A DNA stretch of 43,480 nucleotides from a virus, in the IMG/VR virus record IMGVR_UViG_3300010403_000030, positions 1 to 43,480 of that record; one strand, 5' to 3'. Below are positions 1 through 43,480 of the stretch, piece after piece. The notes beneath the pieces were generated by a model. It saw nothing but the letters and a program-made list of their open reading frames with translations. It searched no databases and had not been told where the DNA came from. Position 1 is the stretch's first letter. Every line of letters begins with the position of its first letter. A program made the position numbers and the translations under genes.

Positions 1-2597
1 AGCACGTTCTCCGGGTTCTTGATCGCGCCCATGACTATCTCGCGCAGGGACTTGAGGTCTCCAGCCGGGATGTCCTTGACGATGGCATTCACGGCCGGGA
101 GCGCCTCGACGGCAGCCTCAGGCACGATGCCAATGTCGTGAGCCGCGCCCGCGAGCACGTCCTGAGCGGCCATCTTCTCGGCCGGGCCTGCGTCGCGAGT
201 CAGGCCCATGGCCTCGTGCAGGGCCTTGTTCTCGGCCTGGCCGAGGTCCGGCATCTTGAAGCCCCGAGACTTGAGCGTCTGCTCCACGAGGTCGATATCG
301 CCCTGGAAGGCGTCACGGAGCTCGCGGTACAGCTGCTCGGGCGCTCGCTGCAGCTTCGGCTCGCCGCCCATGGCAGCGCGGAAGGCCTTGCCCTCTGTGG
401 TCTGGTCGGTGGCGCCCTTGTACGGCCCCTCGGCCTGGGCGACGGCCTCGTCGAGTGCGCGAGCCACGCCCTGTCGGCGGGCCTCCGGCGCGGTCTCGAT
501 CTTGCGGACCGTGTACCCACCACCCGGCTCGCGCGTGTACCACAGATACCCGAGGTCGTTCCCGTTCTTGTCGAGCGCCACGACCATGTTGTCGTTGGGA
601 CCCATCGTCGCGCGCTTAGAGGCGCCGTTGAAGTTCACGTCCTCAACGATGCGAGCCACAGGCGAGGGCTTCTCGGTAGGAGTGTGATGGTACTCGGCCT
701 TAGCAGCCCATTCGGCCGGGAGTACATGCTCCTCCCCGATCTTTCCAAGGCCGCCAGCCAGCTTGTCCAGATCCGTCCCGGCAACTCTTGCCGCCTCAGC
801 TACTGCCTTCGGAACGTCTACGGAGATGATTCTTCCGCCCTCTCCGCCCATGTCTGCGTAGGTGCTAGCGATTGTCGGATTGGTAGTGAACCAGTTACCC
901 TGTAGCTCGGCCCGCTGAGGGTCGAGATGCGTCATCTCTTCCGCCGACCTAGCACCCTCGCCCCGGTACATGCGGACATGACCTTCTGGCACAGGAGAGG
1001 CGTCAACCTGATACTTGACCCCAAGAACGCTCTCGATCTCCTTGGTGGCGGCAGGAGCAGCAGCCTGCGGCTCTCCAGCCGTGTGCATGTCCGGCGCGTT
1101 CTGTGCGAAGATCTCGTCGATGGACGCCTTAGCCTCAGGCTGGGCCTCGAGCGTGCGGAGCTTCTCGTCGGCCCCCATGCCTCCGCCCACGCGCTTCGGC
1201 GTAACGGCTTCCTTTGCGGCAGGTGCAGCCGCCCGCTCAGCCATGGCCTTCTCGCCGGCCGCCGCGATGGTCGCGATGCGGGCTTCCTTAGCGGCAGCGG
1301 CAGCGTTGCGGGCCTGTCCGAACGCGCTCTTGACCGCGCCAGGGATCCCGAGCGTCATCGGGAGAGGAGCCATCCCAGCTATCGCCTCACCCGTGGCCCT
1401 GAACGCGTCTTCCGCCTGCTTCACGCGCTCGTCGTGGGGCATGCGGAGCAGGCCCTCGAGACCGGCGATCTGGTTGGCGCGAGTGGGCAGGGTGCCTCCG
1501 CCGATATCGCCACCGAGCTCAGGAGACGGAGCGGTCTCCTCAGGGGCGCCGGACGCGATCTCCTGCTTCAGTTGCTCGATGCGCTGGCGGATGCCTTCGT
1601 CTGAAAGCTCATGGGCAGACGCCGCAGTGCCGGCTTCCCCCATGGCCTGCCCGGCAACGCCCATGACCCCACCAAGCGGCGTGGCGTTGATGGCCTCACC
1701 GACAGCCCCGAGCACCTTGCCTCCGAACTCCTTGGCCCCAGACAGCGGATCGAGGCCCTGCCGGCGCTGTGACTCCTGGGGCGACTGCGGCATGAGCTCG
1801 CCAATGGCCCCAGGCAGGCGACCGACGCCTCCGGCCATGGTGTCGATGCCCGCGTCGGCCATCCGGCGCACGACGTTGCCGTCCTTGACGGGGGCCGGCG
1901 GCACGAGGAAGTCGGCCACGGGCTTGCCCACGGAGCCGAGAGACTTGAACGCGGAGCCGACGCTGTCGAAGAAGCCTCCGGCCTCTTGGGCCTTCGGCGC
2001 TTCCGGCTTCTTCTCGCCTGGCTGCGGCTCTGGCTTGGCCGCCTCGCGGCGGGCCTTGCCCTTCTGGAGCCAGTCCATCACCTCAGCGTCCTGAGACTCC
2101 TGGTAGTGTTTGGTGACAGCCTGCTCTGGGTTCACGCGCTGGCGCGGGCCAGGGGCGAACGACGCGGGGACGGGGTCGGCGGCCGGAGCGGCTGGCGCCT
2201 GCTGCTGCGGCTGCACGCGAGCCATCACGCTCGAGAGGTAGTTCCCGGCGTCGTACTGCACGCCTCTGGCGTTCGTGCCCTTCGGCAGGAACTTCCGCCA
2301 GTCGCCCTCGGGGCCGGCCTGCTTGATGGCGCGGTTGACGCCGCCCTCGCCCGCGTTCCAGGCCGCGATGATCTTCTCGTCGTCCTCGCCGTACTTCGAC
2401 CTCAGGCTCGCCAGATGCTTCTGGGCCAACGCAGTCTGGGCCTCGGCATTCCCCTTGATGCTGGGCTTGCCGCCGAGGCGATTGAGCGTGTCCGGCATGA
2501 ACTGGTACATGCCGATCTCACCGGACTTGCCAACCGCGTTGGGGTCGCCACCGCTCTCCTGCTGCGCGATGGCTGCGAGAAGTTCCTGATCTGTCAT
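1..2597 (-). CDS. Giant internal virion protein, N-terminal part (lytic transglycosylase + ADP-ribosyltransferase-like + GNAT-like)
   Basis: This is the first 865 codons of a frame that runs off base 1 and continues in frame from base 43480 if the molecule is circular (total 1638 residues). The N-terminus is a lytic transglycosylase (SLT) fold with candidate catalytic Glu14 in QQESGG, then GEIGMYQFMPDT and AAWNAGEGG. Such a domain locally opens peptidoglycan during DNA ejection, as in T7 gp16. After a Pro/Ala-rich stretch, residues about 540-610 look like a polyvalent-protein ADP-ribosyltransferase (MYRGEG with R545, then NWFTT at 568 and a Tyr-Ala segment). Residues about 650-735 look like a GNAT acetyltransferase (RRQGVA at 707-712). 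The start ATG overlaps the stop of the upstream core protein as TAATG. The SLT call is firm; the other two domains are recognised by motif only. Confidence 0.88.
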   Translation of the reverse strand, partial: MTDQELLAAIAQQESGGDPNAVGKSGEIGMYQFMPDTLNRLGGKPSIKGNAEAQTALAQKHLASLRSKYGEDDEKIIAAWNAGEGGVNRAIKQAGPEGDWRKFLPKGTNARGVQYDAGNYLSSVMARVQPQQQAPAAPAADPVPASFAPGPRQRVNPEQAVTKHYQESQDAEVMDWLQKGKARREAAKPEPQPGEKKPEAPKAQEAGGFFDSVGSAFKSLGSVGKPVADFLVPPAPVKDGNVVRRMADAGIDTMAGGVGRLPGAIGELMPQSPQESQRRQGLDPLSGAKEFGGKVLGAVGEAINATPLGGVMGVAGQAMGEAGTAASAHELSDEGIRQRIEQLKQEIASGAPEETAPSPELGGDIGGGTLPTRANQIAGLEGLLRMPHDERVKQAEDAFRATGEAIAGMAPLPMTLGIPGAVKSAFGQARNAAAAAKEARIATIAAAGEKAMAERAAAPAAKEAVTPKRVGGGMGADEKLRTLEAQPEAKASIDEIFAQNAPDMHTAGEPQAAAPAATKEIESVLGVKYQVDASPVPEGHVRMYRGEGARSAEEMTHLDPQRAELQGNWFTTNPTIASTYADMGGEGGRIISVDVPKAVAEAARVAGTDLDKLAGGLGKIGEEHVLPAEWAAKAEYHHTPTEKPSPVARIVEDVNFNGASKRATMGPNDNMVVALDKNGNDLGYLWYTREPGGGYTVRKIETAPEARRQGVARALDEAVAQAEGPYKGATDQTTEGKAFRAAMGGEPKLQRAPEQLYRELRDAFQGDIDLVEQTLKSRGFKMPDLGQAENKALHEAMGLTRDAGPAEKMAAQDVLAGAAHDIGIVPEAAVEALPAVNAIVKDIPAGDLKSLREIVMGAIKNPENV

Positions 2598-4678
2598 TAT
2601 CTTCCCTTCGGACCCATGGACGGGCCGCTGGAGCTAGAGCCACTGGACGGCTGCGCCATCCCCCTGCTCTGACCTGAGGTGCGTGCGAACTCCTCGATGG
2701 CTGTCTCGAGCTTCTGCAGGCGCATGAGCTCGCGGGCCTTGTTGAGGATCGTGCGGCGCTGGGCGTTGCCCTCCTGCCCAGGCGGAACGGCATCCAGCTG
2801 CTTCGTGAGGTCGGACTGCATCACGTCGATGGACTCGGCGGCGGCCTTGGGGTCTTTGGTGAGCGGGAGGCCCAGGAGCTTGCGCCGGGTCGTCACGTCG
2901 ACCTTCGCGGGCACGCCCACGCGCGCCTTGTGCAGATCGAGGTTCTCGTCGAGCACCTGCATCGCGCCCTTCGGGTAGCCGGCCTTGGCGTCCTCGTCGA
3001 TGAGGCGGAACATGCTCTCGACCGCCGCGTTCTCCGCCTGCTTGAGCGGCCCCTGCGCGAACGGACCCGTGACGCGAAGCGCCTCAGTCACACGACGCTT
3101 GGCGTCTGTGGCCTCCTGCCGCTTGCCGTAGTCCTGCTCCTCGTGCTTGGCCTTCGCGTTCAGCTTGTCGAGCAGCTGCGTGCCGATGTCGCCAGGCCCA
3201 CCGGCCGGGACGCGACCGTCGATGATCGCCTGCTTGAGATCGTCCAGGACGACCTTCGCCTCTTCTGGCGTGGTCGCCATGGCGGCATCGCGGTTGAGGC
3301 GCCCGATGGTGTTGGCGTCGCCGTAGCCTCCAGTCTGCGCGGTGCCTGAGCGCTGCACTGTCTCGAGGCGCGTGCGCCACAGGTCGAGATCCTTGCCCTT
3401 GATCAGGCCCTCTTCGGCGGCCTGGTCCAGCCACTCATGCGTGAGCGTCCCGTACTTGTCGGGGTTGCGAATCTTCATCTCGGCCATCGTGGTCGTGGCC
3501 TCAGAGAGCTCCTCGGTCATGCGCTTTGTCTCGAGGCGCTCCTGGTTCTTTCGCTCGCGCTCCATGGACAGGAGGTGCTCACCACGGGCCTCAACCTGAC
3601 GCTGGAGCTCCGCGCGCTTGGCCGGCGGGATGTGCTTGAGGTACGTGGAGCCGCCCTTCGGCCCCTCGCCGTTGTAGAGCGACTCCTGCTGCCTGTGCAG
3701 GGTCTCGGCGTAGGCCGTCGCTTCTCCAGGCGTGGCGAAGGCGCCGAGCATCTTGCCGGTGTCGTAGTACTGCTTGATGGCCTCTTCCGGCGACATCACG
3801 CGGCCATCGTCGGAGATCGTGGGCACGAGGACCTCGTGGCCGTTGTCGTCCTGGAAGCTCATGCTGCGGACCGTGGACTTCGTGCCGTCAGGGTTCTTCA
3901 CCACGGGCCGGTCCGCGAGGTTGATGTTGCCCTTCTTGAGCAGGCCAGCCGGTGCCGCGTCGGCCATGTAGATCGGCTTGTTGGCTTCGAGCTTGAAGAC
4001 GTTCGCCGCGTCCTGCACCACGAGCGGGTCGTCGGACGTGACGGCCCTGAGCACGCGGCTGGTGGCGCCGGCCTGGAGCGCAGCCTGGACCTTCTTGTCG
4101 GCCTGCTCGCGCGTGTAGTACCCGGCCGCTGCCCCCTTGGCGAAGTAGTCCTTCAGGTCCGCCATCTCCCGCGTCTCGGTCCCGTCGGTCGGGCCGGTGC
4201 GGCGAGACTGGAGCTCCGTGAAGTCGCGAACCACGGCGTCGCCCGTGACCTCGTACTGGTCGGCGTGGTTCTGGTGCTCGACCTTGTAGGCGTGGCGCTG
4301 GTACTCGATGAGCTTCGGCGCGAGCCGCTGCTCGAGGACTTTCGTGGCGCCCGGAGACAGACCCTTGAACCAGTCCTGCCGCTTCTGGTCGACGGTCTTC
4401 GAGAACTCGGCCTTCGCGTTGTAGCCGATGTCCGGCTTCGTGAACGTCTCATTCAGATCCTGCAGATCCCTGTCGGCCTGCATGAGCCGCTGGGTCGCGG
4501 TGGCCTCGTCGTCGATGGCCTGCCGCTTCTGCATCAGGTGCGTCAGGTTGTTGCCGAGGTTCTCGGTCGCCTGGCCCACCTGCGCCAGCTGCTTGATCGC
4601 CGGGTCAGCCGGGAGATCTGGCGTGGCCTGGGTCGCGATGCTGGTGGAGACGCCACCGTACGTCGGGAAGATCGGCAT
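2597..4678 (-). CDS. Internal core/virion protein (T7 gp15-like position)
   Basis: This 693-residue protein is mostly helical and rich in Gln, Ala and Lys. It lies between the gp14-like protein and the giant transglycosylase protein, the position of the T7 inner-core protein gp15. Residues about 248-335 form a distinct module (GNINLADRPVVKNPDG, then VLVPTISDDGR and a C-terminal LHRQQE). I recognise this from many phage internal or polyvalent proteins, but its function is unknown to me. The rest has coiled-coil character, and the C-terminus is a Ser/Gly-rich tail. The start is coupled to the upstream stop as TGATG. The role as a core or ejection protein is inferred from position and composition. 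Confidence 0.75.
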   Translation of the reverse strand: MPIFPTYGGVSTSIATQATPDLPADPAIKQLAQVGQATENLGNNLTHLMQKRQAIDDEATATQRLMQADRDLQDLNETFTKPDIGYNAKAEFSKTVDQKRQDWFKGLSPGATKVLEQRLAPKLIEYQRHAYKVEHQNHADQYEVTGDAVVRDFTELQSRRTGPTDGTETREMADLKDYFAKGAAAGYYTREQADKKVQAALQAGATSRVLRAVTSDDPLVVQDAANVFKLEANKPIYMADAAPAGLLKKGNINLADRPVVKNPDGTKSTVRSMSFQDDNGHEVLVPTISDDGRVMSPEEAIKQYYDTGKMLGAFATPGEATAYAETLHRQQESLYNGEGPKGGSTYLKHIPPAKRAELQRQVEARGEHLLSMERERKNQERLETKRMTEELSEATTTMAEMKIRNPDKYGTLTHEWLDQAAEEGLIKGKDLDLWRTRLETVQRSGTAQTGGYGDANTIGRLNRDAAMATTPEEAKVVLDDLKQAIIDGRVPAGGPGDIGTQLLDKLNAKAKHEEQDYGKRQEATDAKRRVTEALRVTGPFAQGPLKQAENAAVESMFRLIDEDAKAGYPKGAMQVLDENLDLHKARVGVPAKVDVTTRRKLLGLPLTKDPKAAAESIDVMQSDLTKQLDAVPPGQEGNAQRRTILNKARELMRLQKLETAIEEFARTSGQSRGMAQPSSGSSSSGPSMGPKGR

Positions 4679-5223
4679 CAGTACTCTCTCGCGTAGGTGT
4701 TACGTGATGGGACGATGCCGGGGCTGTCGACGTTGAGACCTCCGCCGGTCTGCGTGCCTGCGCCAGCGCCCTTCGTGCCGTAGCTGGTGGCCACCGAACT
4801 CGCGGAGCTCAGGAGGCTGATCCCCGCCTGGGTCTCCGGGCTGATGCGGTCGGCCTGGTACTTGGCGAAGTTCGACCGGGTCTTGGCCTCGGCCGCGCGC
4901 ACGTCGTATCCGTGCTGCACGTTCAGGGCTTGGAGCTCGGAGTCTTCGGCGAAGTTAAGCTCCTTGAGCAGTGAGCTCCCAGTTCCGGCCACCACGTTCG
5001 CCCCAGCCGCCCGAGCCCTGAAGCTATTCATGGCCGCCTCGTCAGCTTTGCGCTGGCGCTTGGCGGCCTCGCGGCCAGCCTCTTCCTGCACCGCCGCGTT
5101 GTGCTCCTCGATGATCGCGGTGTTGCGGAGGTTGTCCTGCTGCTGTTGGGCAGACGCGTACGCGGCGTAGGCGGAGACCGCCGCGCCGATGGCAGCGATT
5201 GCTAGTGTGGCGATTGTGGCCAT
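4678..5223 (-). CDS. Internal virion protein, T7 gp14-like
   Basis: A 181-residue protein with an N-terminal hydrophobic Ala-rich segment (residues about 4-24), then a long Gln/Ala/Glu-rich helix and the pattern ALNVQHGYDVRAAEAKTRSN near residues 100-120. This pattern is typical of short-tailed phage internal virion protein B, which is ejected early and placed in the outer membrane in T7. It precedes the gp15-like and gp16-like genes in the canonical order. The C-terminus is Gly/Thr-rich. The family call rests on pattern and gene order. Confidence 0.78.
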   Translation of the reverse strand: MATIATLAIAAIGAAVSAYAAYASAQQQQDNLRNTAIIEEHNAAVQEEAGREAAKRQRKADEAAMNSFRARAAGANVVAGTGSSLLKELNFAEDSELQALNVQHGYDVRAAEAKTRSNFAKYQADRISPETQAGISLLSSASSVATSYGTKGAGAGTQTGGGLNVDSPGIVPSRNTYAREY

Positions 5224-5229
5224 GGGTCT

Positions 5230-5355
5230 CTAGTTCTTCTCGCAGGGGCAAGTGGGCTGGTCCCACCGGCGCAGAGGGCACTCTTCGGGGCTGGGGTTCA
5301 CGCGGGCTGGCGGAGGCCCGACCTTTGAGTGATCGACGGCCTTCTCAAGCTTCAT
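5230..5355 (-). CDS. Small cysteine-containing protein, unknown
   Basis: A 41-codon frame starting with ATG inside the end of the acetyltransferase gene and ending 6 bases before the gp14-like start. The product has a basic, Pro-rich middle and three cysteines near the C-terminus (EEC and CPC), a possible metal site. It fills an otherwise empty gap and matches the tight packing of the late operon. No family recognised. Confidence 0.5.
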   Translation of the reverse strand: MKLEKAVDHSKVGPPPARVNPSPEECPLRRWDQPTCPCEKN

Positions 5356-5848
5356 GGTCGTGGGCGCCCGCGTTGATGTAGATGATCCCGTCCTGTCTCG
5401 ACGCAGCAGAGACATCATCGGGAAGGTCGTTGTACTGGAAGGCCATCGGCACCGTCTGGCAGGCGTGGAATCCTTCGGACTCGAGGATCGCGCGCATCGG
5501 CTTGTTGTCCGGCCACGTCATGCCGACGAACATCGCGCAGCCGACCTGTCGGCCGACCTGCATACGCTTCTGGATCAGCGCGCGGCCGATGCCCTGGCCT
5601 CTGTAGTCCGGGTCTACGGCGCTGTCTCGGAGGTACTGGATGAAGCTGCTGCCGGCCGGATGGTTGTCTACGGTGTATGAGCCGTAGCCGACGATGCGCT
5701 CACCATCTAGGTCTAGCGAGCAGACGATGGTCGGGTTCGCGTGGTACCAGAACTTCGGTCGAGCAGGCCAGGTGGGGTGGCACTTCTTCGTGAGCTCTCG
5801 AACCTTCGGCTCGTCAGCCGTCTCCATGTGCCTGTACAGGAGGTCCAT
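5345..5848 (-). CDS. GNAT-family N-acetyltransferase
   Basis: A 167-residue GNAT protein. The acetyl-CoA binding motif A is clear at about residues 89-105 (AVDPDYRGQGIGRAL, giving the R-x-x-G-x-G/A loop), followed by a C-terminal strand region with MAFQYND. The substrate is unknown. It sits between tail tubular protein B and the internal virion proteins, where T7-like phages carry a GNAT-fold internal protein (gp13), so it may be packaged. A GAAAGGACAC ribosome-binding region precedes the ATG. Confidence 0.85.
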   Translation of the reverse strand: MDLLYRHMETADEPKVRELTKKCHPTWPARPKFWYHANPTIVCSLDLDGERIVGYGSYTVDNHPAGSSFIQYLRDSAVDPDYRGQGIGRALIQKRMQVGRQVGCAMFVGMTWPDNKPMRAILESEGFHACQTVPMAFQYNDLPDDVSAASRQDGIIYINAGAHDHEA

Positions 5849-5860
5849 GTGTCCTTTCGG

Positions 5861-8542
5861 TTAGCTGTTGCCGTCGTCGTACTGCGCTGCGCGCGAGACA
5901 CCGAGGACCGTCATGCCGAATGGCTGGTCCTGGATGATCTCGACCTGGGCGAGCTCGTCCCACCCGAGGTGGGCCTCGCGGTGGAAGTCCAGAATCTCGT
6001 TGTTCTCGAGGAGCAGTCTCGGGACGCTCTCTCCGTTCACGGTCACGCCCTCGCCGTGGGAGCAGTAGAACTTCACGTAGACGGCCGAGTTCCGCTTCTT
6101 GCGGGCGTGGAGCGTGCCCTCCTGCGTCTGGGCCTCGAGTGGGAGGGTCTTGATCGTGGTCTTGTAGTGGAGCCCTACCTCGATCCGCACGGACTCGCGC
6201 GAGATGGTGATGGCCCCGGCCTCGACCGTGCCGACCTCGTACTTCGTGCGCTGGCGTTGGAAGGCGCCCATCTGGAACGCGCTCTTCTGGAAGGCCGACT
6301 GCGCCGTGAAGAGCACGTCCACGTCGCCGGCCTGGTCCAGGTGGCTGAGTCCAACGAGCGTGTCCGCGAGGACGGTGTCGTCGTAGACCAGTGCCGACTC
6401 GGTATTCAGCTGCCCGTCGAAGACCTCGATGTGGCGCTTGCCGTCGCGCTCGACCATGATCCAGATCTCGTCGCCGGTGCCGCACTTCGCGGGGATGACG
6501 CAGACCGACTTCACGAGGCCCGTGCTGGGCCATCCGTGCATCTGGAACTGGGTCCAGGCCACGACCTCCTGGTCGCGCTCGTACGTGGCCACCGCCATCC
6601 GGCCGTCGCCCAGGACCACCAGGACGTAAGAGTCAGGGCTCGAGCACCAGGCCATCTCTATGGCCCCGGTGCGGAACAGGTGCTCCGACAGGATCGCGAT
6701 GTCCGTGGCGTTGTACCCGCCCGAGGCGCCGGCCTTGTTGAAGTCGAACCCCATCTCACGGATCTGCCGCCTGCCGCGCTGGATGAAGAGCAGGGCATCA
6801 GCCGCACGCATAGCGTCCGGCTCAGGGTCGGAGCCCCACTCAGACTGCGGCTGCGTGCGCGGGGGGTCGTTCGCCGTGATGGTGCTGTCGTTGCCGCCAC
6901 GGATCGCGTATTCCGTGCCCGTGGATCCGACCAGCATGTCCTGCATCGACTTCACCCAGCGGATCACGTCTACCTGATTGGAGCCGTTGACGATGGGGAA
7001 CACGATGGCGTCGTCGTCGTTGGGGCCGATTCCGAAGTTCTCGAAGTCGCCCACGCGAGAGCCGTACATGATGAAGTTCTTGTAGAAGTAGAGCCGCTGC
7101 TCGAAGAAGTTCACCACGCCAGGGAAGCCCTGCGTCTCAGACCACGAGTCGGCCTCGAGCGTCCAGTTGCCGGCCACCACGACTGCCAGCGTGTCGGGGA
7201 TGACCTTGATGATCTTGGCCTTCGCGGCGGTGGAGGTCGTGACCTCGGTAATCTCGAAGATCCCGTCCAGGGCCTTGATGAACATCCCCACGTCGGTAGA
7301 CCGGAAGCCGGCCTGCGAGAGCGTCAGGTCCACGATGGAGTTGATGGGCTCCTTCGCACTGATCGTCAGGGCCGCGAACGGGGAGCCGTCCAGCGACCAC
7401 AGGCCCGAGGCCACCGGGTTCGTGTTCAGGAACGGCGAGATGATGTCGGCATGGACCTGGGTGGTGCTGTCCACGACCGTGATCACGGCCACTCCCCCGC
7501 GCGAAAGGATCTGGCGGTTCTCGTCGCCGTCCACAAAGGCCGCTACGTCAGTCGTGAACGAGACGTTCTGGCCGGTGGTCGCGCCTGGGGTCAGGGTCGC
7601 GAAGGGCTGGAGCGGCACCTCTTCGGTCGGTGGCGGAGAGAAGACGACTTCCTGCAGCGTCCACAGGCGGTCCGAGATTCGGATCAGCTTCTGCGGCGCG
7701 TGGTCAGGATGACAGATATACATCCAGTTCGCGGACTGGGCGAAGCGGAGGGACCGGAGCTCGTCCGGCTCGTAGGGAGTGGCGATCTCGAGCGGTGCAG
7801 ACAGGTGACCCGACACCGCGTCAAGCGACGTGTTCGAGAGCGGTACTGCCGAGGACCACCAGATCACAGCGATGCCCGACGAGGGGGCCACGAACGTCGC
7901 AGTGATGCTGCCAGCCGGGACGGTGCGGGCCGTGATCAGGCTGGCGTTCCCGGCCGAGGAGCCGGCGCCGAACTGTATGCTCGAGCCGCCGATCTGGAAC
8001 GTCACCACGTAGGTGTCGCCAGGTGTCAGACCCGAAAGCTGCTGACTGATCATCGCGAAGCCAGCTGCGCCAGTGTCGATGTGCGCCTGGCCGGTGGCCT
8101 GCGTGATCGTGGCGCCGTTGTCCTGCTGCAGCGTCCATCCGCTCAGGTCGGTCGTGAATTCGCCATTCGTGACGAGCTCAGCGCCGGAGGGCGTGCCGAG
8201 CAACTGCTCGCGGTTGCGGTAGAAGCGGATGTACCGCGCCCCGAACTCGAGGACGTAGGCCTCGCTCGGGCTGAACACGAACTTCACCAGCCGGGCGCTG
8301 TCGCCCTGCGAGGTCTGGAAGGCGCTGTTCTGGAAGGCTGAGGCCTGAAACGCGGAGCGCTCCTGCTCGGCCGCGATCCACCCGGTCCCGCCCCGGCGGC
8401 TCGCGCCGCCCGTGACCTTGATGACCGCGTTGATCAGCGTCTCGGCGCCGTTGGGGTACTTCTTGAAGTCCACCCGCGAGTAGAGGAATGGAGAGAGCTC
8501 CCCTCCCGTGAAGTTGGTCTGGTACGGGTGGGCCGAGGACAT
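5861..8542 (-). CDS. Tail tubular protein B (T7 gp12-like nozzle)
   Basis: An 893-residue protein beginning with the family signature NFTGGELSPFLYSRVDF, then GGASRRGGTGW. This is the start of the T7 gp12 / tail tubular B family that forms the tail nozzle. Two clusters of a five-residue repeat built on SAFQ occur, at about residues 65-80 and again near residue 760 (SAFQKSAFQMGAFQ). The start overlaps the stop of tail tubular A as TAATG. The large size and its position after tail tubular A support the call. Confidence 0.92.
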   Translation of the reverse strand: MSSAHPYQTNFTGGELSPFLYSRVDFKKYPNGAETLINAVIKVTGGASRRGGTGWIAAEQERSAFQASAFQNSAFQTSQGDSARLVKFVFSPSEAYVLEFGARYIRFYRNREQLLGTPSGAELVTNGEFTTDLSGWTLQQDNGATITQATGQAHIDTGAAGFAMISQQLSGLTPGDTYVVTFQIGGSSIQFGAGSSAGNASLITARTVPAGSITATFVAPSSGIAVIWWSSAVPLSNTSLDAVSGHLSAPLEIATPYEPDELRSLRFAQSANWMYICHPDHAPQKLIRISDRLWTLQEVVFSPPPTEEVPLQPFATLTPGATTGQNVSFTTDVAAFVDGDENRQILSRGGVAVITVVDSTTQVHADIISPFLNTNPVASGLWSLDGSPFAALTISAKEPINSIVDLTLSQAGFRSTDVGMFIKALDGIFEITEVTTSTAAKAKIIKVIPDTLAVVVAGNWTLEADSWSETQGFPGVVNFFEQRLYFYKNFIMYGSRVGDFENFGIGPNDDDAIVFPIVNGSNQVDVIRWVKSMQDMLVGSTGTEYAIRGGNDSTITANDPPRTQPQSEWGSDPEPDAMRAADALLFIQRGRRQIREMGFDFNKAGASGGYNATDIAILSEHLFRTGAIEMAWCSSPDSYVLVVLGDGRMAVATYERDQEVVAWTQFQMHGWPSTGLVKSVCVIPAKCGTGDEIWIMVERDGKRHIEVFDGQLNTESALVYDDTVLADTLVGLSHLDQAGDVDVLFTAQSAFQKSAFQMGAFQRQRTKYEVGTVEAGAITISRESVRIEVGLHYKTTIKTLPLEAQTQEGTLHARKKRNSAVYVKFYCSHGEGVTVNGESVPRLLLENNEILDFHREAHLGWDELAQVEIIQDQPFGMTVLGVSRAAQYDDGNS

Positions 8543-23622: not shown

Positions 23623-23698
23623 TGGCGATCCCTGCGGGGTTCGAACCCGCGATCTCCACCGTGACAGGGTGGCGAGGACTCCGCTCCTCCAAGAGACC
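23623..23698 (-). tRNA. tRNA-Asp (GUC)
   Basis: A full cloverleaf reads on the minus strand. The acceptor is GGTCTCT / AGGGATC (two wobble pairs), the D-stem GAGG / CCTC, and the anticodon stem CCACC / GGTGG with loop CTGTCAC (anticodon GTC, T33 present). The five-base variable loop is AGATC and the T-stem GCGGG / CCCGC has loop TTCGAAC. CCA is encoded. It lies inside the late operon. Confidence 0.95.
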
Positions 23699-36772: not shown

Positions 36773-37149
36773 ACGACTTCAAGATCAAGGACTCCGGCAA
36801 CCGCGAGGTCTTCGTGACTGGCATGCACCGCGACACTTCCGAGGGGAAGCTCGACTATACGTTGGTGTTCGACGGCCCGATGCTGGACCGCTACGCCGAG
36901 CACCTGACGAAGGGGGCCAAGAAGTACGCGGCCAGGAACTGGATGCTGGCCGCGACGCCAGAGGAGATGGAGCGGTTCAAGATCTCCGCCGCCCGCCACT
37001 TCCGACAGTGGATGCGGGGCGACACAGACGAGGATCACGCGGCGGCGGTGATCTTCAACCTGAACGGCTTCGAGTACGTGAAGGATAAGTTGTGCCGGCA
37101 GGCCGACAATCAGGCCGACGCCGAGCGCGCTGACCTAGCATGGCCTTGA
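36769..37149 (+). CDS. dATP/dGTP diphosphohydrolase-family protein
   Basis: A 126-residue protein with the family pattern TSEGKLDYTLVFDGPMLDRY, HLTKGAKKYAARNW and RHFRQWMRGDTDEDHAAAV. These all-alpha NTP pyrophosphohydrolases convert dNTPs to monophosphates, altering the dNTP pool. GTG start in a GTGA overlap. The integrase promoter begins inside its last codons. Confidence 0.8.
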   Translation: MNDFKIKDSGNREVFVTGMHRDTSEGKLDYTLVFDGPMLDRYAEHLTKGAKKYAARNWMLAATPEEMERFKISAARHFRQWMRGDTDEDHAAAVIFNLNGFEYVKDKLCRQADNQADAERADLAWP

Positions 37150-37174
37150 CACCTGGCACACAGGCTGGTAAGAT
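37146..37174 (+). promoter_or_regulatory. Integrase promoter (sigma70-like)
   Basis: TTGACA (37146-37151), a 17-base spacer and TAAGAT (37169-37174), 37 bases before the integrase ATG. The -35 begins at the stop of the preceding gene. It allows integrase expression apart from the early operon. Confidence 0.78.
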
Positions 37175-37211
37175 CGGTCGTGTTATGATCCCGACCCTCA
37201 GGGAGGACACG

Positions 37212-38102
37212 ATGCAGCTATCAGCCCTCAGCCGGCAGTACCTCCGTTTCTTCATGGCCCGTGGCGCCAGCCCGCGAAGTGCCGACTGCTACGACCTGAC
37301 GCACCGGCAGTTCATCGGGTATCTGCAGGCACAGGGCCTGACAGACGACATCCGGCACTTCACTGCGGAGAATGTCCAGGCATTCGCCGCATACCTTGCG
37401 GAGAATGGGCGCAAGGCGAGCAGCGTCAACGTCAAGCTCGCGGCCCTGCACTCGCTCGGAGAGTACGGGGTCAAGACCAAGGACGCCAAGGGCCGCTACC
37501 TCCTGGCCGAGAACCCGCTGCTCCGGGTGTACCGGCCGAAGCGGCAGCGCCCGCCCGAGAAGTACCTGAGCCGTGACGAGATCATGGCCCTGCTCGCCGA
37601 GCCGTGCCCAGCGCCAGTCAAGCTGGTGGTGGACATGCTGGTGGACACGGCGCTGCGGGCCTCCGAGCTCGCGACCGCGAACGTCGAAGCCTTACGGGCC
37701 GACGGCGAGCGCGTGATCCTCTCGGTCAAGGTCAAGGGCGGGCGGCACCAGGAGATCGTCCTCGGGGCCGAGGTCGCCGGCCGGCTGCTCGAGTCGCTGC
37801 GCTTCCGTGAGGCGAAGCCCACAGACCCGCTGCTCGTGAACGAGAAGGGCGACCGCTACACTCGCACGACCCTGAGCGAGGCGGTGCTGCGGCTGGCGAG
37901 GCGGGCTGGTATCACCCGGATCCTGGTTCGCGCCCACGTCCTGCGGCACTCGGTCGCGACCATGGCCTCGAGCCTCAAGGTAGACGTGCCCACCATCGCG
38001 GCCATGCTCAACCACTCAGACATCCACACCGCCCAGCGCTACGTCCACCGGCACGATGCCGTGGACGCGGCACGCGAGGCCATCAGGGAGGCGCTGCGAT
38101 GA
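37212..38102 (+). CDS. int: Tyrosine recombinase (integrase)
   Basis: A 296-residue protein with an N-terminal SAM-like core-binding domain (residues 1-85) and a catalytic domain. The residues are Arg149 (LRASEL), Lys175, His242-x-x-Arg245 (HVLRHS), His268 (MLNHSD) and Tyr277 (RYVH). The ATG at 37212 has GGGAGG upstream; longer frame extensions would cover the promoter. It lacks the arm-binding N-terminal domain of lambda Int, so it is XerC/D-like in size. It should insert the phage into the host chromosome. Confidence 0.93.
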   Translation: MQLSALSRQYLRFFMARGASPRSADCYDLTHRQFIGYLQAQGLTDDIRHFTAENVQAFAAYLAENGRKASSVNVKLAALHSLGEYGVKTKDAKGRYLLAENPLLRVYRPKRQRPPEKYLSRDEIMALLAEPCPAPVKLVVDMLVDTALRASELATANVEALRADGERVILSVKVKGGRHQEIVLGAEVAGRLLESLRFREAKPTDPLLVNEKGDRYTRTTLSEAVLRLARRAGITRILVRAHVLRHSVATMASSLKVDVPTIAAMLNHSDIHTAQRYVHRHDAVDAAREAIREALR

Positions 38103-40760: not shown

Positions 40761-41164
40761 TGCGTTGGTCCCCTCTCGTTGTATCTGTCGATGCTCTCCA
40801 GTGCGTGGAGGAACGCTGCGATGATATAGATGCCCTGATCCATCATGATGAAATACGGAGACCGCTCGACCCCGTCCGGGTAGTGCCCAGCCGTTATTGC
40901 TACTATGGCGCTGATCCCTGACAAGATGATGAGCACCTGCTGCGGGAACACGCTCAGCAGCCCGATCACGCTGCCAGGCTTCCACAGCAGTACGGCCGGC
41001 AGCAGCGCCGCCGTGATGTACATCATCCCCCGAAGGAAGTAGTGCCCAGGTCCTACAATCTCCAGCAGCGCTGACGTGGCAGTGATGTGAAGGGCGCCAC
41101 CATTGGCGATCAGCGTCAGCCCCCAGAGGATGTGCATCATGGAGACGAACAGGACTAACATCAC
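40757..41164 (-). CDS. Polytopic membrane protein
   Basis: A 135-residue protein with about four membrane segments (LVLFVSMMHILWGLTLIA, YFLRGMMYITAALLPAVLLW, VLIILSGISAIVAIT, GIYIIAAFLHALES). It follows the giant virion protein in a GTGA/TGATG overlap at its start. It may be a second holin-like or antiholin protein; no family is certain. Confidence 0.68.
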   Translation of the reverse strand: MMLVLFVSMMHILWGLTLIANGGALHITATSALLEIVGPGHYFLRGMMYITAALLPAVLLWKPGSVIGLLSVFPQQVLIILSGISAIVAITAGHYPDGVERSPYFIMMDQGIYIIAAFLHALESIDRYNERGPTQ

Positions 41165-43480
41165 CGACCCTGACCCGCGCTCTCCCGGACCATGTCCCGT
41201 ACCGGATCCTTCAGATCCTCGAGGCTCTTGGGGTACTTCAGCTGGTCACGGTCGGTCTTCCGCATCTGGACCGCGATGTCGAGCTTGGGGTACTCCTCGA
41301 GCAGCTGCATCTCAGCCTGATGCACGAAGCTGTCGAACTTGTTCTTGATCATGTCCACCTTGCCGGCGTCGCTCGCGTCCTGGTAGTCCTCATCGCTCTT
41401 GAGAGAGTTCATCGAGTCGTGTAGCGTGTTGCCCTCGTAGTCGGTGATCTCCTTCGCGAGGATCTGGCCCAGGCGGTGGCGCTCAGAGTCGGAGAGCTTG
41501 ATGCCCTCGCGGATCATCTTCTCCTTGCTGCCGGACAGGTTGAACGGGCTGGCCCCCTGCGACCCGCCGATCACGCGCGGCACCTCGAAGTCGATGCTCG
41601 CGCCGCCGAGGCGTACGGCCTCGTGCATGATCCAGCTGTCCGTGAGGGTGGATACCCGCCACGGAGCCACAAACCCGAGCCACTGGTTCTCGTTGGGGAT
41701 CGCTTCTCCCGTGAAGACGTTCGTGGCCGCAGGACGTGGCTTGTAGCCAGCGAGCTCAGACACGTCGTGCGAGCCCCAGCCGGGGATGTTCTGGCGGAGG
41801 ATGTTGACGAGCTTCTCCCACTCGCGCATCTCGGGGTTCTCGTTGTCGGCCACAGTCTTGCTGTCGAGCTTCTCGGGCGAGGTGGAGTTCTGGATGTAGC
41901 GCCACGTAGCCGCGCCAGGGATGGCGGATCCGACCTTGCGCGCAGCCCACACCGCAGCCGCGTCGCCGTTGCCTTCCTTCACGGTCCCGGTGATCGCGTC
42001 GCCCATGTCGATCACGCCCTGGAACCACTGCTTGCTGAGCGCGCTGCGAGCCAGCGCCAGAGCCCCGGCCGAGTAGTACGACTGGATGCTGTGGTCGTCC
42101 ATGTCCGGCGCCGCCTCGATGAACGTCGCCACCGTGCTGAGGATGGTGGACAGGGGCTCGAGGTTGTCGTACGAGCGGTACTTCCCGCCAATCCAGACAC
42201 TCTTCTCCATCCAGCCTGAGGCCGTCATCTTCTTCCTGAGCTCTGGGTCGGTCGGCCCCATGCCCGTGATGTAGCCGTTCATGGCGTAGTAGCCGGTCAG
42301 GCCCATGATCCCCAGGCCGGTCACCATCTTCGCGACCGCGAGGTTCGCCTTGGCGCCACCGGAGGCGATGTCAGACCAGGTCTGCTTGGCCAGGACGTTG
42401 AGCAGCGGTGTGTGGACGGTGCTGAACTCGGCGAGACGCACCGGGGTCCTGAAGAACGGTGTCACCAGGGCCTTCGCGATGGGCGTGTTGGCTGCCGTCT
42501 CGATGGCGCTGGCGGTGGTGCCAGGCGTGAAGGCCTTGGTGAAGGTGTTCTCGTGCGCGAACTCCTGCGCGCCCTTGAGCATCTTCGTGGTGGGCTCGTT
42601 CATGAGCTTGTCGAAGGCGGCCACTCGGTCGGCCCCGGACAGGTGAGCAGTGTTTCGGGTCGCGAGGGAGCGGAGCTCGCCCTGGAACGAGAGCACCTTG
42701 TAGAACTCGTCCACGCTGGACATCAGCTTCATGTTCTTCTCGGCCAGCGAGGACATCACGCCGATGATCCCGCCGACGGTGCCCTTCCCAGCCTCGAGCG
42801 AAGCCTGGATGGTCTCGAGCGCCTCGGCGTTCTTGGTCGCACCGAAGGTGGACTTGCCCGTGTCCCACGAATCCTTGGCGTAGCCGAAGGCGCCCTTCTT
42901 GGCACCGGCCCGAAAGCTGTCGGCCACGGTGTCGAAGATGCCGCTGACCATGGCCATGGTCTCGCCACCCTGGACCATCCCCTTGCCACCGCCCAAAGCC
43001 CGGAACGGCATCGACAGGATCTCGCCAGCGCCACGGTCTACTACCGCCATCGCCAGCGCGCCCGTGTTGCCGATCATGTTGCGAAGGTGCGTGAGCGGGG
43101 AGCCCAGCAGGTTGAGGCCGTAGTAGATGTTCCACAGCGCCTCGGGCCACTTGCTCGCGGCGTTGGCCAGCTTCGTGGCCGCAGCCTTGTCGGACAGATC
43201 CATGACCATGTCCACGAACTGGGCCGGCGTGACGTTGCCACGCTTCAGGAACTCAGCACGCGCAGCCTCGAGCTCCTTGGCGAAGGTGCCGAGTTCGAAC
43301 TTCGAGGCCTGGGTGATGTCGGTCTCGATGCCCAAGGCGTTCATGCCGCGAGCGTAGGCCGTCTTCAGGTTCTCGATCTGCTGGCTGAGCTTGCTGGTCA
43401 TGATGGCCTGGTCGATCACGGCCAGCTGACTCTCGGGCGTGGGGTTGAGCTTGGCGTGCGCGCCGAGCTCGATGGTCCGC
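41161..43480 (-). CDS. Giant internal virion protein, C-terminal part
   Basis: This is the C-terminal 772 codons of the protein that begins at base 2597, read across the joined ends (codon 866 spans the junction). An internal GTG at 43419 should not be taken as a start, because the frame stays open to base 43480. The region is largely helical with several hydrophobic stretches (WNIYYGLNLLGSPLTHLRN, GLGIMGLTGYYAMNGYITG), as expected for the part of T7 gp16 that forms the ejection channel across the inner membrane. It ends in a basic, Gln-rich tail and its stop overlaps the next gene. Confidence 0.82.
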   Translation of the reverse strand, partial: RTIELGAHAKLNPTPESQLAVIDQAIMTSKLSQQIENLKTAYARGMNALGIETDITQASKFELGTFAKELEAARAEFLKRGNVTPAQFVDMVMDLSDKAAATKLANAASKWPEALWNIYYGLNLLGSPLTHLRNMIGNTGALAMAVVDRGAGEILSMPFRALGGGKGMVQGGETMAMVSGIFDTVADSFRAGAKKGAFGYAKDSWDTGKSTFGATKNAEALETIQASLEAGKGTVGGIIGVMSSLAEKNMKLMSSVDEFYKVLSFQGELRSLATRNTAHLSGADRVAAFDKLMNEPTTKMLKGAQEFAHENTFTKAFTPGTTASAIETAANTPIAKALVTPFFRTPVRLAEFSTVHTPLLNVLAKQTWSDIASGGAKANLAVAKMVTGLGIMGLTGYYAMNGYITGMGPTDPELRKKMTASGWMEKSVWIGGKYRSYDNLEPLSTILSTVATFIEAAPDMDDHSIQSYYSAGALALARSALSKQWFQGVIDMGDAITGTVKEGNGDAAAVWAARKVGSAIPGAATWRYIQNSTSPEKLDSKTVADNENPEMREWEKLVNILRQNIPGWGSHDVSELAGYKPRPAATNVFTGEAIPNENQWLGFVAPWRVSTLTDSWIMHEAVRLGGASIDFEVPRVIGGSQGASPFNLSGSKEKMIREGIKLSDSERHRLGQILAKEITDYEGNTLHDSMNSLKSDEDYQDASDAGKVDMIKNKFDSFVHQAEMQLLEEYPKLDIAVQMRKTDRDQLKYPKSLEDLKDPVRDMVRESAGQGR

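Follow-up and report, generated by a model that had tools for sequence, protein, structure and literature searches.

This locus raises the question of whether a phage ejection protein can also carry enzymes into the host cell. The window, meaning the whole stretch of DNA analysed, is an IMG/VR virus record of 43,480 bases. The initial annotation placed at positions 1-2597 a virion protein of the T7 gp16 type, with a transglycosylase followed by an ADP-ribosyltransferase (ART)-like block and a GNAT-like block, and proposed that both would enter the host with the DNA.

The reading frame starts with an ATG, which overlaps the gp15-like stop codon (TAATG) and has GAAGG upstream. It runs for 865 codons (3..2597, minus strand) and is still open at the left end of the window. 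A second minus-strand frame enters at 43479 and stops at 41161 (41161..43480; 772 codons plus stop), and encodes a gp16/internal virion protein D core. It is the in-frame continuation of the first: the frames agree, and the codon across the record ends is CTG (Leu). Provided that the record is circularly permuted, the joined ejection protein has about 1638 residues. We infer circular permutation from the matching frame, from how the halves are ordered and from the gene order. The gene annotated at 1-2597 is therefore present but incomplete, since its membrane-channel part is encoded at 41161-43480. The record was cut inside the gp16-type gene, and a linear annotation would yield two broken genes.

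It is conceivable, though very improbable, that the record ends are unconnected, the SLT-ART-GNAT part and the gp16 core either being two separate genes or having been put together by an assembly error. A search of the record ends found no terminal repeat, no homologue spanning the join was found among the gp16-like proteins examined, and completeness of the record is not established; but the frames match, the halves match the N- and C-terminal parts of one protein type, and from the gene order a gp16 gene has to follow gp15. In addition, a giant virion protein from another record (L138/G010) is split alike, and there the two ends share sequence. Relatives of the N-terminal and C-terminal parts were sought in viral contigs and none were found, while queries with tail tubular protein B and the portal gave one relative (L002, 79-89%), a contig that ends before gp16.

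The ejection protein is encoded among virion genes, all on the minus strand. Preceding it are a gp15-like internal virion protein of 693 residues (2597..4678), for which no family match was found and which was assigned from its position and from the gene order in sister phages, and a gp14-like internal virion protein of 181 residues (4678..5223; phrog_418, E 7e-5; PF24072 T7_gp14, E 0.036). Before these come tail tubular protein B (5861..8542; phrog_376, E 1e-131) and, between it and the gp14-like gene, a stand-alone GNAT gene (5345..5848; PF00583, E 1e-14). The order tail tubular B, GNAT, gp14-like, gp15-like, gp16-like matches that of Pelagibacter HTVC035P, Nostoc Nsp-JY18 and similar podoviruses. 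An acetyltransferase is also found at the place of the stand-alone GNAT in both of these named phages. An integrase is encoded at 37140-38102 (plus strand; phrog_1, E 5e-36), and the phage appears to be temperate and short-tailed, with a T7-like ejection module. Identification as a lytic Autographivirus was dropped because of the integrase. The window also contains a tRNA-Asp (gtc) gene (23623-23698, minus strand). In the sister phages Vibrio MZH0603 and Nostoc Nsp-JY18, giant LPD22 proteins are found in the gp16 position (L168, 14887-20592, and L167, 15893-22273).

Residues 3-100 (2298..2591, minus strand), at the N-terminus of the protein, form an SLT lytic transglycosylase domain that matches PF01464 with E 1.8e-19. 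Its best match of known structure is T7 gp16 itself (chain 7eyb, E 9.2e-5), with residues 5-117 aligned to T7 residues 28-145, such that E14 is aligned with E37, the catalytic residue of T7 gp16 (PMC8954989). The C-terminal half matches phrog_6651 (E 1.8e-33) and resembles internal virion protein D/gp16 in 28 phage records, with which it has motifs in common; these come from cyanophages, roseophages, Pelagibacter phages and others. No direct match was found between the C-terminal half and the T7 gp16 core. A Gly/Ala-rich hydrophobic region at residues about 244-330 (1608..1868, minus strand) was picked out by hydropathy and is possibly the equivalent of TMH I of T7 gp16. Two membrane-inserting regions were sought in the joined protein, and the stretches found are only moderately hydrophobic. 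Judged from its sequence, the joined protein is a T7 gp16-type ejection protein. The annotation as a gp16-type protein with a transglycosylase is thus upheld by the PF01464 match, by T7 gp16 as best solved match and by the C-terminal core, and the two further enzyme-like segments do lie between the transglycosylase and this core, at the residues originally given. Neither domain is present in the gp16-like proteins of the other phages examined, and there is consequently no conservation at this exact position that would argue for a selected function.

The GNAT domain is the clearer of the two. It occupies residues about 664-745 (363..608, minus strand) and matches PF13508 with E 3.2e-5, at 24.7 bits against a curated cut-off of 27. 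The acetyl-CoA motif R/Q-x-x-G-x-G/A is intact as RRQGVA at residues 707-712 (462..479, minus strand), exactly where it had been annotated, with R707, G710 and A712 all present; RRxG and the Ala are invariant in the GNAT alignment (A4). An AlphaFold model covering both domains, made with 14 alignment rows, has a mean pLDDT of 75, and the top Foldseek matches of its GNAT part are GNAT structures (probability 1.00, E 5e-4 to 1e-3). The profile of A4 matches GNATs in the PDB with E 2e-5. It is concluded firmly that this block has a GNAT fold, as the initial annotation had suggested, and a chance resemblance is rejected.

The domain is a minimal one: the N-terminal helices and final strands usual for a GNAT are missing both here and in its relatives. 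A fixed-spacing pattern search of viral contigs gave seven GNAT loci. One of them (L148) encodes a GNAT that is 51% identical over the domain and lies in a 727-residue protein from the putative virion gene cluster of another phage, in which neither SLT nor ART was detected. L143, L144, L145 and L147 likewise have the minimal GNAT in giant phage proteins, and so does gp70 of Rhodococcus phage E3, annotated as structural and encoded two genes before the portal gene. Solo Actinobacterial GNATs were also seen in the genome scan. Because the minimal form recurs in unrelated giant phage proteins, its small size is a family trait and not decay.

The ART-like domain (residues about 518-640; 678..1046, minus strand) is less certain. 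The family ART-PolyVal (PF18760) matches the segment with E 0.015 and a score of 16.5 against a curated cut-off of 31.2, which is weak on its own. The signature of PF18760/Tox-ART-HYD2, a histidine in strand 1 and a tyrosine in strand 2, is absent, and these places are taken by R545 and W569-F570. Arg545, the strand-1 arginine, lies in MYRGE (963..965, minus strand) and is invariant in nine aligned sequences. In the alignment, W569-F570-T571-T572 (882..893, minus strand) is the equivalent of the STS motif of R-S-E ARTs, with T571-T572-N573 in the place of STS. The candidate catalytic glutamate is Glu623 in GEEHVLP (729..731, minus strand), which in the R-type alignment falls where the EFVLP/EFLLS of the relatives has its Glu, although the first residue of the ExE motif is replaced by G621.

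A model of the ART-like domain alone has pLDDT 77 and pTM 0.74. Tpt1/KptA, TreTu, pertussis toxin and PARP10 are all proteins of the ART superfamily. All of the top 16 Foldseek matches of the model are Tpt1/KptA or TreTu, albeit with poor E values (best 0.15, probability 0.25-0.38), and pertussis toxin and PARP10 are found lower in the list. Sequence comparison gave no match of known structure for the block, tblastn with the ART alone against phages found nothing, and a search of plasmids for ART-GNAT gave only matches with E 0.5 and 0.7.

Relatives of the ART were gathered by two WFT-motif pattern scans of viral contigs, and the pattern biases any profile comparison made with them. The scans yielded roughly a hundred giant phage proteins that contain GxWFT..P..A..YA; in the majority strand 1 has YHGT or YTGT, the published H-type region. 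A smaller R-type set is close to the window ART in sequence. It comprises L138, in which the domain occurs twice in tandem, L052/L094/L139, and small proteins that stand alone. The second copy in L138 reads PPVPEGHVRLYRG, against SPVPEGHVRMYRG in the window. The giant protein of L138 is encoded directly after the terminase and portal genes. This protein (L138 1-5352, L157 5112-7094) also has a weak ParB-like match, and the peptide RAEAQARGITDAEGLL from one end of the record that splits its gene is found again at the other. Ten loci (L023, L030, L034, L046, L062, L075, L089, L102, L124 and L132) encode stand-alone phage proteins of 146-186 residues, which have the R-type N-terminal motif and WFT and lack the C-terminal Glu. 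A profile match between the R-type and H-type ARTs (hhalign probability 94.6) was discounted, because both sets had been picked with the WFT pattern, and a combined alignment (A5) was left out because it set the ART C-terminus wrongly.

These data bear on the suggestion that only the GNAT is real and that an unrelated alpha/beta insert with a chance WFT motif makes up the ART-like block. Such an insert would account for the lack of a solved-structure sequence match, for the poor Foldseek and weak PF18760 values and for relatives that were retrieved by a WFT-containing pattern. It would not account for a similarity to L138 (E 6.5e-11) that reaches residues outside the pattern, with E 2.7e-5 for the residues before the search motif alone (PVPEGHVRxYRG), nor for fold matches that are uniformly of the ART superfamily, nor for the match of L138 to ART-PolyVal (E 0.0077). 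We consider this suggestion unlikely, and assign residues about 518-640 to an ART-like domain with moderate confidence. The R545 and NWFTT (at 568) of the initial annotation are where it put them and the model and its fold matches agree with an ART; the Foldseek E values and the glycine two positions before Glu623 leave that assignment less than complete.

Our preferred reading, which we consider probable, is that a polyvalent-type effector pair, an ART and a minimal GNAT, has been inserted in the ejection protein, of the gp16 type, that this temperate short-tailed phage encodes. It could be that both domains are real but no longer catalytic, and act in the ejectosome as folded modules or as binding modules (for partner binding or spacing) or are decaying polyvalent passengers. 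This has a substantial chance of being right, if somewhat short of even. It agrees with the altered ExE and the T-T-N in place of STS, with the minimal GNAT, with the loss of Glu from one of the two tandem L138 copies and with the absence of both domains from gp16-family relatives; on the other hand the protein keeps R545, E623 and its acetyl-CoA motif, RRQGVA, and the same minimal GNAT is found in several unrelated giant phage proteins.

If the inserted pair is considered in the light of T7 gp16, a mechanism can be proposed. According to PMC8954989, peptidoglycan is cut by residues 1-156 of T7 gp16. Putative membrane regions lie at residues 243-410 and 1119-1290, and residues 411-1118 make up a hub in the cytoplasm that binds DNA. 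In the window protein the pair would sit between the peptidoglycan-cutting, putative membrane-entry N-terminal region and a DNA-clamping, channel-forming C-terminal core. By analogy, the protein would be stored in the virion core, unfold, be ejected and cut peptidoglycan, and would then make up the inner-membrane and cytoplasmic part of the ejectosome. Their position, which corresponds to the place where gp16-C of T7 enters the cytoplasm, implies that ART and GNAT would face the cytoplasm after the first membrane region, and both enzyme folds would probably enter the cell together with the DNA. They may then refold where the DNA channel opens into the cytoplasm, and could modify host proteins before phage gene expression, through ADP-ribosylation with NAD+ and acetylation with acetyl-CoA. 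That the T7-type ejectosome is in this way an effector delivery device, with an active R-type ART and GNAT modifying host proteins at the entry site in the first moments of infection, is a tentative proposal that we consider rather doubtful at present.

The locus links two fields: work on the T7 ejection machine, which is understood in structural terms, and work on polyvalent effectors, which have been predicted computationally. Were the domains active, enzymes would be placed in the cytoplasm by the ejectosome, in a fixed number of copies and ahead of all phage gene expression; this would be a defined and testable case of injected counter-defence or host take-over enzymes. In that case an R-type group would also be added to the virion-borne ARTs.

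That disparate enzymes are injected as parts of 'polyvalent proteins', in some cases with ART and GNAT as neighbours, was described by Iyer et al. 2017 (PMC5512222). The window protein agrees with that description in having disparate domains (here SLT, ART-like and GNAT) in one large predicted virion protein, with ART and GNAT in one polypeptide; some polyvalent proteins also have a lysozyme or transglycosylase. A 4182-residue phage ORF (L084 413-12958), in which several copies of the ART occur along with one GNAT, fits the published pairing. Metallopeptidase and LPD domains, which are common but not required in polyvalent proteins, gave no Pfam match in the window protein. It differs from them in its carrier, a T7 gp16-type ejection protein, and in its strand-1 arginine where theirs is a histidine. 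The polyvalent ARTs are described as H-Y-D type, and genuine polyvalent proteins are stated to lack ARTs from the Alt/VIP2 (R-S-E) family (PMC5512222); that paper does not contain the terms 'gp16', 'T7-like' or 'internal virion'. On the tentative effector-delivery reading, the R-WFT-E ART would be an injected phage ART subfamily distinct from the published H-Y-D type.

T7 gp16 (7eyb) shares with the window protein the N-terminal transglycosylase with its catalytic Glu, the order gp14-gp15-gp16 and a large C-terminal part; it is shorter, at 1318 residues, and no ART or GNAT has been described in it. T4 Alt is a virion-borne R-type ART that is injected with the DNA (PMC5512222), and is alike by this description, but it is a separate protein outside the ejection channel. 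The minimal GNAT is shared with giant proteins including Acinetobacter phage Ab9 CDS0016, L144, L145 and Rhodococcus phage E3 gp70; L144 and L145 have RRxG[VI]A and TxxGxAF at equal spacing, while in Ab9 CDS0016 the GNAT is instead paired with PBECR5. A search with profile A3 detected no R-type ART in the ORFs that carry these GNATs. The concept and the ART-GNAT pairing have therefore been published already, and what differs here is the T7-type gp16 carrier and the R-type ART.
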